This document shows, in pieces, positions 9,475 to 14,681 of a stretch of DNA of 64,000 nt. The DNA lies in NCBI RefSeq assembly GCF_002368415.1, contig NZ_AP018290.1, forward strand, positions 9,105,717 to 9,169,716, in the 5' to 3' direction. The notes below the pieces were generated by a model. The model did no database searches. It was not told the DNA's origin and was given only the letters and a program-made list of their open reading frames with translations. The translations under genes and the position numbers were made by a program. The DNA is from Calothrix sp. NIES-4105. GTDB taxonomy: Bacteria; Cyanobacteriota; Cyanobacteriia; Cyanobacteriales; Nostocaceae. How positions within the stretch are numbered: the stretch's first letter is position 1; each line of letters starts with the position of its first letter.

Positions 9475-9984
9475 TTATTGCTCGTCTTCTTTCAGCTTCT
9501 CGTAGCTTTTTTGCAAACGGTTAAGTTCAGCTTCTGCTTGTTTAAGGAGAATATCCCAATCATCCGGAGGGTAGTCATTTTGAAGCATTTTTTTAAAGAC
9601 TCGGTAAGCGTCAGTCTTACTGTCATAAGCTCGCTTAGATTTTTCATCATTGACCCAAACGAATATAATTATCCTACTTTCTTGGTGATACCTAAAGAAC
9701 AGTCTATATTGTTGAAAAAATTTGGCTCGGAACCAATGTTTATACTTATCGCCTAGAGTCGCACCTTGACGATACTCGTTACGTGTAGGTTCAGTAGGAA
9801 TAACTTCAAATACAAGTTTAATGATGGCGGCTAAACGTTTTGTAGTATTTTTTTTATGGTAATTTTGAGGGTCGTTTTGACGCAGAAGTTCAACAGAATT
9901 CAAAAGCTCCTCAAGTTCGTCAAGAAAAAGCGGATGGGCAAAAATACTCCACCCATTAATTACTAATGGTTGACTTGTAGACAA
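9475..9984 (-). CDS. yhaV: YhaV-family type II toxin (ribonuclease)
   Basis: A 169-residue protein with the YhaV layout: NGWSIFAHPLFLDELEELL at the N-terminus, a central KLVFEVIPTEPTRNEYRQG, and the core RAKFFQQYRLFFRYH followed by FVWVNDEKSKRAYDSKTDAY near the C-terminus. YhaV is a RelE-fold ribonuclease that slows growth by cleaving RNA and is neutralised by PrlF. The antitoxin gene precedes it by two bases, so they form one operon. The C-terminal helical, charged tail is somewhat long but acceptable. Confidence 0.88.
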   Translation of the reverse strand: MSTSQPLVINGWSIFAHPLFLDELEELLNSVELLRQNDPQNYHKKNTTKRLAAIIKLVFEVIPTEPTRNEYRQGATLGDKYKHWFRAKFFQQYRLFFRYHQESRIIIFVWVNDEKSKRAYDSKTDAYRVFKKMLQNDYPPDDWDILLKQAEAELNRLQKSYEKLKEDEQ

Positions 9985-9986
9985 AT

Positions 9987-10319
9987 TTACTCATCCTCAT
10001 CAGACAAGGGTACATCGATATCAAACTCAACATCAGCCACTAAGGACTGGGCACGTCTGAGCAAATCAGAAGTGATTGGTTTAATTCGCTGAGGATTATT
10101 TTTGATATCTTTGGCAAGAAAATCCAAAAACTCTCCAAGCACTGGGTCATTTTCCACATCGTCAGCATTTGAAATAATGACTTGACCATTTGGCTGAATT
10201 GCGTAATGAATTTTATCGCGCTTATTTAAGCCCAAGGCTTTTCGCACACTTTCAGGAATTGTGGTTTGGTATCGGTCAGTAAGAGTGGATTCTGCTTGAA
10301 AAGTAAAATCTTTAGCCAT
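9987..10319 (-). CDS. prlF: PrlF/SohA-family antitoxin
   Basis: A 110-residue protein with an AbrB/SpoVT-type swapped-hairpin DNA-binding N-terminus (STLTDRYQTTIPESVRKALG, then DKIHYAIQPNGQVIIS). The C-terminal region that wraps the toxin includes DPVLGEFLDFLAKDI. It binds and inhibits YhaV and probably represses the operon. It is the first gene of the two-gene unit, the standard antitoxin-first order. Confidence 0.88.
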   Translation of the reverse strand: MAKDFTFQAESTLTDRYQTTIPESVRKALGLNKRDKIHYAIQPNGQVIISNADDVENDPVLGEFLDFLAKDIKNNPQRIKPITSDLLRRAQSLVADVEFDIDVPLSDEDE

Positions 10320-11171
10320 AGTGCTTTCAAGTTAATTTGGCAGATTCTACAGAATATAGTAATGCAATTGCATTGTAAGCGTCAAGAACAGTATTATTCA
10401 TTGCGGTTCTTGCGTCCAGTCTCGAATCCCCAAACGAGGCGAAGTTTAAACCTTTTCACAAGGTTTAATTATAAACTCTTGTGTTCAAGGTAAGGGCGCC
10501 GTTCCGGACATTCATCTTCAAAAAAGACTACTAGTTCTCCCGATACTATCTGGCGCAAGGTGCGCTTGAAGCCACGCTGTGATTTCTATTTTTTTTAGCT
10601 ACAGTAATCCGTCAACCAAGTGGGACAAATTACAAAGTTACTCCGATGCAATGGTGCCGGGTTTATGAACTTAAAGCAAGTAGAAAACTTTCGCGCGTCC
10701 CGGTAATCAACAAATAAAAGAATGATTTCACGGTGCCTGCTACCATGCGTTCAAGTTGCTTAGGCTATTTGAGGTGCCTCGCACTTGCAAGGTTGAAAGT
10801 TGGTTTAGGAACGAATTGAGACTGAATAGCGGCACTTATGCTATTCAAATAGAAGAGTCTAAAACTCACTAGTCTTATAGAGCTTACAGATGCCTTCTAG
10901 TAAATCTAGGAGTTTAGAAAAGCGCGCATATTGATGGGAGGTACATTACACCCCTAGCTTAGTAATCTGATTTGGTAATGCAAGGAGCGTCCAATACCTT
11001 TACTTTTCAACTCATTCTCGGCTAGCATAAAGCCTAAAAAATTGTATTTGTATAGTGCTTGTAACTACAAATATTTGCATGTTTTACAAGCACTAAATTT
11101 ACAATTGTCTTTTAACTACAACCGCCAGGAAAATATCTACGATTCGTATATGATACCTACGTAATAGAAAG
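10320..11171. other. Long non-coding region between prlF promoter and Z1 gene end
   Basis: About 850 bp without a credible gene. The left ~150 bp should hold the prlF-yhaV promoter. From about 10500 to 11000 composition is less AT-rich than typical intergenic DNA here and contains several short inverted repeats (for example AATAGC...GCTATT near 10828-10848, and GAGGTGCCTC near 10770). It might encode a structured RNA or be debris of a lost partner gene; I could not recognise either. Confidence 0.5.
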
Positions 11172-13391
11172 CTAAGAAGGCATTGTTAAGTTAAGACCAC
11201 CTTGATTCTGACTAATCCAATCGTTTCCCATTTTTCGCGGAACCCATATTGAAATTACAGGTATATTTTCAATTATTTTTTCTTCAGATTCTACATTTAG
11301 TTTATGAATTTGAATTGTTAACCTATCTTTTATCATGATTTGTCTATCACCTGGGTATTTATCCCAAACATCGGAATCTGCTCTCCCTTGAAATAAATTT
11401 AATCTACTCATATTCTTAACACTTCTTAAGCGTTTCCTACCCTTGTCCATAAGATATATATCGCAAAGTTCGTCTGGATTTTCTTCCAAATAACTCTGTA
11501 CTTGTAACATTAGCCCGGTTAATCGTTGTGAATCGTTAGGGTGTGTTGTACGAAACTTTATAATAAGTTGTTCAAATGTATTTAAAAGAGAGATATCAGT
11601 TGCAAAAAAATGCTTATTGACTGGTACTTTTCCAAATATCTTTTCGTCAGTATAGCTTAACTGCAACCAAAATGTATCTACAACTTCTTGATTTTTTATA
11701 ATAGTATCTTCATCTGAGTCATAAGGATAATTTGGAATATACCAATCATTACTAAATCCGCCTGCTGTTAAGGGTAAATCTAACACATTACCTCTAGTTG
11801 GCTTAAGAGAATTATCTAGGAAAAAGGCACGTTTCCATTCTGACAATGGTTTGCCTCTATATTTTTTCAACTGATAGCGTATATTTTCTTCATGTTCTAC
11901 GTAAGTTATAAATGCATCTTTTACGTCCTTTTCCAGGAATACGCGGCAGTAACCTAAGTATGAGCGTTTGTATCCAAAGAAACGCGCTCTTTGTTGAAGT
12001 GTATCAGCATTGCCAACACCTGCTCCTCTTGGCATATAAGTTATAGTCAAACCTTCGATTGTAAAACCTCTATCCATTGCTTGTCCACCAACAAGGATGT
12101 GGGCATATTCATTTTTCCAATCTATTTGGGGTGTTTTACCTCCAGTAGCATTTATCTCTTGGATATTTGTCTGATTTATAGCACGTGGAAGAGCTTCAAC
12201 AAGCTCTTTAAAAGATGGTAGATTAGGCACTGTTTTAACTAAATCATTGTAGGCAATTTTAAAAGCTTCTAGCAATTTTATACGTTCTGGCTCATGTATA
12301 TCCTTGCCTAAAGCTTTCTTCCATTGGTTATTTATCTGTCTAGCCCAATGAAAGTATTCTCCATGAGGAGCCGTATTTCGTGATGGATGAACCATCATTG
12401 AGCGGTTTCCTCTGCTTTTATCCTGTATATAACCAGCTGCTACTCCAAGATAAAAGAGCATCGAAGCGTATAAGAAGGTTTCAGGAGGTTCAATAACCTC
12501 ATTATTTTTAGTTGGAATTTCTTTGGAAGGGATAGTTTTTATGAGATGTAAGTCGTTATTTAAGAAAAACTCTTTTCCTCCAGTATAGTTTGCACCAGGA
12601 CTTAGGGCTTCAGCAAAATCAGGTGATAATACATCAGCTATATTTATTAGCAATGGAGCTTGAGGTGTTGCTGTATATTGCAGAAAGGAATGATGAGGAA
12701 GTAATTGTTTAAGCTCGATTATATTACGATAAATCGTACTCATTAACCCCTCGTTTACTTTGTTATTAAGTCCTGCTTGATCTGCTTCATCATCAATTAT
12801 AAGCACAGGTACTCCCTCTAAATTAAGGCTACGAAGTAGGTTGTTTAAGTGTTGTAGGTGATCACTCTGCTTCATTACTGTCAAAAGTGCTATTTCTTTT
12901 TCATCCTCCAGGATTGAAGGGTCATCCCATGTGTCTAGAGAGCTTTGAATATTTTGGCGTTTATTTTCTCGTGGATTTTCAAAATACTTCCATCTACGAT
13001 CCTCACGCGTATCCCAACGCAAATCCTTTTTTAGCCTGTCGTTAGATTGTTTGAACAAATTTGTCTTTGTTCCTCCTATAATAATCACCATACGATAACC
13101 ATTATCACAAGCTAAAGCTGTAACTGTAGTAAAGGACATTGTTTTACCACTTTGTACATATCCGGTTACTAGCCCTGTCTTGCTACCACAGGCTAATTTT
13201 GGCGACACACATCGCTTTATTATATCAATCGCCTCATCCAGTATTCTTGTTTCACTTTCTATATCACAAAGATTAAGATGCTCAAATAAATCCTTCGTCT
13301 CTTTGCCTACGACTGGAGACCATAAATCCTTTGGCTCCTGCGCTTCAGTCATATTTACCGTTTTTTCCAGGGTTTCTGAATAACTGTTCAT
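11172..13391 (-). CDS. Z1-domain superfamily II ATPase
   Basis: A 739-residue cytosolic ATPase. Walker A is GYVQSGKT (residues 77-84), Walker B is VPVLIIDDEADQ (DDEAD at 200-204), and the Z1-typical QYTATPQAPLL motif follows near 238. The helicase-like C-lobe contains GGQAMDRGFTIEGLTITY and a QQRARFFGYK arginine motif. Z1 ATPases are known from putative restriction/defence loci, usually beside MORC/MutL-type ATPases and a PD-(D/E)xK nuclease; those partners are absent here. The gene is divergent from an HTH-pentapeptide gene over a shared 114-bp promoter region. A role in DNA remodelling during defence is inferred. Confidence 0.82.
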   Translation of the reverse strand: MNSYSETLEKTVNMTEAQEPKDLWSPVVGKETKDLFEHLNLCDIESETRILDEAIDIIKRCVSPKLACGSKTGLVTGYVQSGKTMSFTTVTALACDNGYRMVIIIGGTKTNLFKQSNDRLKKDLRWDTREDRRWKYFENPRENKRQNIQSSLDTWDDPSILEDEKEIALLTVMKQSDHLQHLNNLLRSLNLEGVPVLIIDDEADQAGLNNKVNEGLMSTIYRNIIELKQLLPHHSFLQYTATPQAPLLINIADVLSPDFAEALSPGANYTGGKEFFLNNDLHLIKTIPSKEIPTKNNEVIEPPETFLYASMLFYLGVAAGYIQDKSRGNRSMMVHPSRNTAPHGEYFHWARQINNQWKKALGKDIHEPERIKLLEAFKIAYNDLVKTVPNLPSFKELVEALPRAINQTNIQEINATGGKTPQIDWKNEYAHILVGGQAMDRGFTIEGLTITYMPRGAGVGNADTLQQRARFFGYKRSYLGYCRVFLEKDVKDAFITYVEHEENIRYQLKKYRGKPLSEWKRAFFLDNSLKPTRGNVLDLPLTAGGFSNDWYIPNYPYDSDEDTIIKNQEVVDTFWLQLSYTDEKIFGKVPVNKHFFATDISLLNTFEQLIIKFRTTHPNDSQRLTGLMLQVQSYLEENPDELCDIYLMDKGRKRLRSVKNMSRLNLFQGRADSDVWDKYPGDRQIMIKDRLTIQIHKLNVESEEKIIENIPVISIWVPRKMGNDWISQNQGGLNLTMPS

Positions 13392-13412
13392 AGTTGCGCT
13401 TCCATATATTAC

Positions 13413-13459
13413 TAACGCTATAATATAAACACTAGCGTGACTAAGTTCTACTAGCGTTA
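13413..13459. promoter_or_regulatory. Three operator-like repeats in a divergent promoter
   Basis: TAACGCTA at 13413-13420, TAGCGTGA at 13433-13440 and TAGCGTTA at 13452-13459; the first is the exact inverse of the third. Centre spacing is 19-20 bp, roughly two helical turns. A TATAAT sits at 13419-13424. The site lies between the Z1 gene and the HTH-pentapeptide gene, so binding by the HTH protein to control both is a natural inference. Confidence 0.55.
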
Positions 13460-13505
13460 CTGTGGATTATACTCTTTTTTACCACGTAAGACAACATAAA
13501 GCACC

Positions 13506-14681
13506 ATGAAGAAAATTCGTTGTAATCTAAGGTATTTAATGGAAAAGCGCGAACTGTCTCAATATCAACTGGCTAAGGAGACAGGTCTTAGCATCAATGC
13601 CATCGGCAGGCTTTATAAAGAGGAGTTTGACCGCATTGATTGCAACACGGCTGAAGTGCTGTGTAATTACTTCAACTGTGACTTATGTAAACTTTTTCCC
13701 TTAGAGACAGCTTTTTCTAACCGAATAACAGATTCTGAGTTTCGTAAACGGTATGCAGATGGGGAGAGAGATTTTTCTGAAGTAGACCTAAGCAAAGTTG
13801 ATCTAAGTGGATTAAGTTTTCAAGATTTAAATTTGACAGGAGCAATACTGAGGCAGGTAATATTTCGTAATATAAATTTAATAAATGCAAATCTAGACAA
13901 AGCAGACTTAACAGAAGCTGATTTAGAAGGAGCAATTCTTGAAAAAGTGTCTTTAAATACTGCAAAGCTTAATAAAGCTAATCTCAAAGCAGCCCAGTTA
14001 ACCTATGTTGAACTAAAAGATGCAGAACTCGGTGAAGTCTTGCTGCAAAATAGCAAGTTTCATTGGTCGGACTTAAATGGTGCAATTTTGACAGCAGCAA
14101 AGTTAAATAACGCACAAATAGTTAGAGGTAATTTTGAAAAAGCAGACTTAACTAATGCTGAGTTAAGAAACGTGGACTTAAAATGGACGGATTTACGGGA
14201 AGTTAAGCTTGGTAGTTCTGATTTGAGTGGTGCTAAAGTAGAAGCAAGTTGTTTGATAGGCGCCGATCTTCGCAATGCTAACCTTAATAATGCCTGTTTC
14301 AGCTTAACTGACCTTACTTTCGCTAATTTGAGCCATGCTGATCTTATAAGAACTAAATTTGATGATACTAACCTTAGTTATGCTAATTTAAGCCTAACTA
14401 ACCTTACTCTTACTATTCTTAATCAGGCTAGCTTGGTAAATGCTAACTTAAAGGATTGCAATTTAGGTGGTTGCAATTTAAGCGGTGTTAATTTGAGTTA
14501 TGCTGACCTTACTAGTGTAAATCTAAGAAATGCTACTCTCAAGGGCGCTAAACTGAGTCATGCAAAACTAAAATTTACTGATCTTAGATATGCTGACCTT
14601 CTTAACACAGATTTAAGCAGTACCAATTTAGATGATGCATATCTTGAAGGAGCAACAATGCCTGATGGCAACATTAGTTAA
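13506..14681 (+). CDS. XRE-type HTH fused to pentapeptide-repeat protein
   Basis: A 391-residue fusion. Residues ~1-65 are a Cro/C1 HTH (REKELSQYQLAKETGLSIN-like core: LSQYQLAKETGLSINAIGRL, then NYFNCDLCKLF). From ~85 to the end are about 55 pentapeptide units of A(D/N)LXX type (for example LINANLDKADLTEADLEGA), expected to form a right-handed quadrilateral beta-helix. Such helices in MfpA/Qnr imitate DNA, while others are structural. It is divergently transcribed from the Z1 ATPase. I infer that it regulates that gene and may also be its partner; neither is shown by the sequence alone. Confidence 0.85.
   Translation: MKKIRCNLRYLMEKRELSQYQLAKETGLSINAIGRLYKEEFDRIDCNTAEVLCNYFNCDLCKLFPLETAFSNRITDSEFRKRYADGERDFSEVDLSKVDLSGLSFQDLNLTGAILRQVIFRNINLINANLDKADLTEADLEGAILEKVSLNTAKLNKANLKAAQLTYVELKDAELGEVLLQNSKFHWSDLNGAILTAAKLNNAQIVRGNFEKADLTNAELRNVDLKWTDLREVKLGSSDLSGAKVEASCLIGADLRNANLNNACFSLTDLTFANLSHADLIRTKFDDTNLSYANLSLTNLTLTILNQASLVNANLKDCNLGGCNLSGVNLSYADLTSVNLRNATLKGAKLSHAKLKFTDLRYADLLNTDLSSTNLDDAYLEGATMPDGNIS

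Follow-up and report, generated by a model that had tools for sequence, protein, structure and literature searches.

Tentative partner-exchanging control hub: a divergent ATPase and HTH-pentapeptide-repeat pair in Calothrix

Results

In the 64-kb stretch of Calothrix sp. NIES-4105 analysed here (the window), the gene for an ATPase, a motor-like enzyme, lies divergent from one coding for a helix-turn-helix (HTH) domain fused to a pentapeptide-repeat beta-helix (HTH-PPR). The pair remains together in the close relatives found, and in other relatives an unrelated exonuclease replaces the ATPase beside HTH-PPR; neither the pair nor the enzyme swap was found described in the open-access PMC literature searched. 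We tentatively propose, with a probability of about 0.27, that HTH-PPR is a partner-exchanging control hub, captured together with a stripped-down restriction ATPase by type V-K CRISPR-associated transposons. The locus comprises the following features:

11172-13391, minus strand: ATPase gene
13392-13505, no strand: predicted divergent promoter/operator region, 114 bp
13395-13406: predicted operator site 1, weak, 4/12 mismatched to TACRCTAGYGTA, 19 bp to site 2
13414-13425: predicted operator site 2, weak, 4/12 mismatched
13428-13439: predicted operator site 3, 2 mismatches, 19 bp to site 4
13447-13458: predicted operator site 4, 3 mismatches
13506-14681, plus strand: HTH-PPR, whole protein, 391 aa
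13506-13721, plus strand: Cro/C1-type HTH (HTH_26) domain of HTH-PPR, where model confidence is low to middling
13764-14669, plus strand: pentapeptide-repeat beta-helix of HTH-PPR, net charge about -11

This layout confirms what the first-pass annotation had observed, namely a divergent ATPase and HTH-pentapeptide gene with operator sites in between; site 2 overlaps its TAACGCTA, and the helix is counted at 58 pentapeptides where about 55 had been given. A comparison for family membership at the window locus gave 128 bits versus 25, supplemented by motifs; in PADLOC, MzaC scored 71 bits, with its best stretch at residues 393-506, and Helicase_II scored 192 bits.

A palindrome near TACRCTAGYGTA is common to ATPase-type and exonuclease-type loci. 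At ≤2 mismatches it occurs at 20 sites in 12/17 regions (shuffled mean 0.9, maximum 4), a count that is partly circular, as the consensus was drawn from the regions then scanned. A held-out 8-mer, common to two window sites, occurs 20 times at ≤1 mismatch in 9/11 exonuclease-type regions, three of these occurrences being exact copies (shuffled control: mean 2.3, maximum 9, 0/500). Pairs of sites exactly 19 bp apart, with ≤4 mismatches per site, number 22 in 15/16 regions (shuffled maximum 4), and 11 in 7/7 regions once near-duplicates are dropped (shuffled maximum 2); G791 holds no such pair. No other pitch in the 13-30 bp range exceeds 7 pairs, and the doublet-to-doublet step of 33 bp reaches 12. 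Scanning the genome with a pattern taken from the window's tandem returned its own site at 0 mismatches, by construction, and three places at 3 mismatches, not above the reversed control (5). Being conserved and confined to a single genomic place, the predicted tandem operator points to a dedicated local regulator.

Discussion

According to the proposed mechanism, the operator-bound beta-helix of HTH-PPR would repress and also directly govern non-homologous nucleic-acid enzymes, its C-terminal tail being adapted to the partner, and the captured pair would form a two-gene defence (or inter-element exclusion) module free of methylase and nuclease. The ATPase type is often linked to CRISPR-guided transposons and may therefore be a mobile defence module. 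In published descriptions, type V-K elements carry their cargo in the interval from tniQ to the MerR-type gene (cvkR) with cas12k (PMC9938897, PMC8649781), which is where the G342 pair is found; the pair in the window does not lie between tniQ and cvkR-cas12k.

The locus departs from the closest known restriction-type loci, whose methyltransferase, GHKL ATPase and DUF4420 genes are without match in the window (L198 and L199 partner proteins, tblastn, E≤1e-3), the ATPase having a divergent HTH-PPR instead, which matches in 0/10 of those loci. As for the CglI and NgoAVII restriction-modification systems (PMC4267653), the L198 query found no methyltransferase match in the window, R.CglI not being among the queries.

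Alternatively, HTH-PPR could be the antitoxin of a toxin-antitoxin-like pair, acting as transcriptional repressor and direct inhibitor of a putatively toxic enzyme, with persistence through addiction instead of defence. This is doubtful: type II modules likewise place a DNA-binding protein beside an exchangeable enzyme with a shared predicted operator, but here the genes are divergent, without co-transcription, and the regulator is a very large beta-helix protein. Moreover, the tail difference could reflect common descent, because the ATPase and exonuclease types form one split on the tree. In L038 and L039 (G139 and G125) the exonuclease has altered catalytic motifs (AHNAKFH, HRALSQ) and is possibly a dead enzyme retained beside HTH-PPR.

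A further alternative, distinct from addiction and DNA mimicry, appears unlikely; it draws on the single genomic place of the tandem operator, on the proximity of the exonuclease type to ctaB (4/6 loci) and on the pentapeptide protein HetL, whose target in Nostoc is the transcription factor HetR (PMC7476756). As modelled, HTH-PPR resembles HetL, MfpA and Qnr in its pentapeptide beta-helix, although this helix is longer and fused to an HTH. MfpA and Qnr proteins mimic DNA and are among the Foldseek matches, but the earlier suggestion that the helix imitates DNA and keeps the ATPase inactive seems highly improbable, given that ~307 residues carry a net charge of only about -11 by sequence count (-5, -2, 0 and 0 on the faces), that HetL is the best match by E-value, and that whole-model TM-scores are low throughout. 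The first-pass interpretation of HTH-PPR as repressor and functional partner is upheld in part, its DNA-mimic component having little support.

As regards neighbouring genes, a YhaV/PrlF toxin-antitoxin pair (9475-10319) adjoins the window locus. In Calothrix PCC 7716 (L002), the sister cassette has as its neighbour (9500-13735) a SNF2/helicase protein of 1411 aa that weakly matches PLD, the two perhaps representing a defence island.
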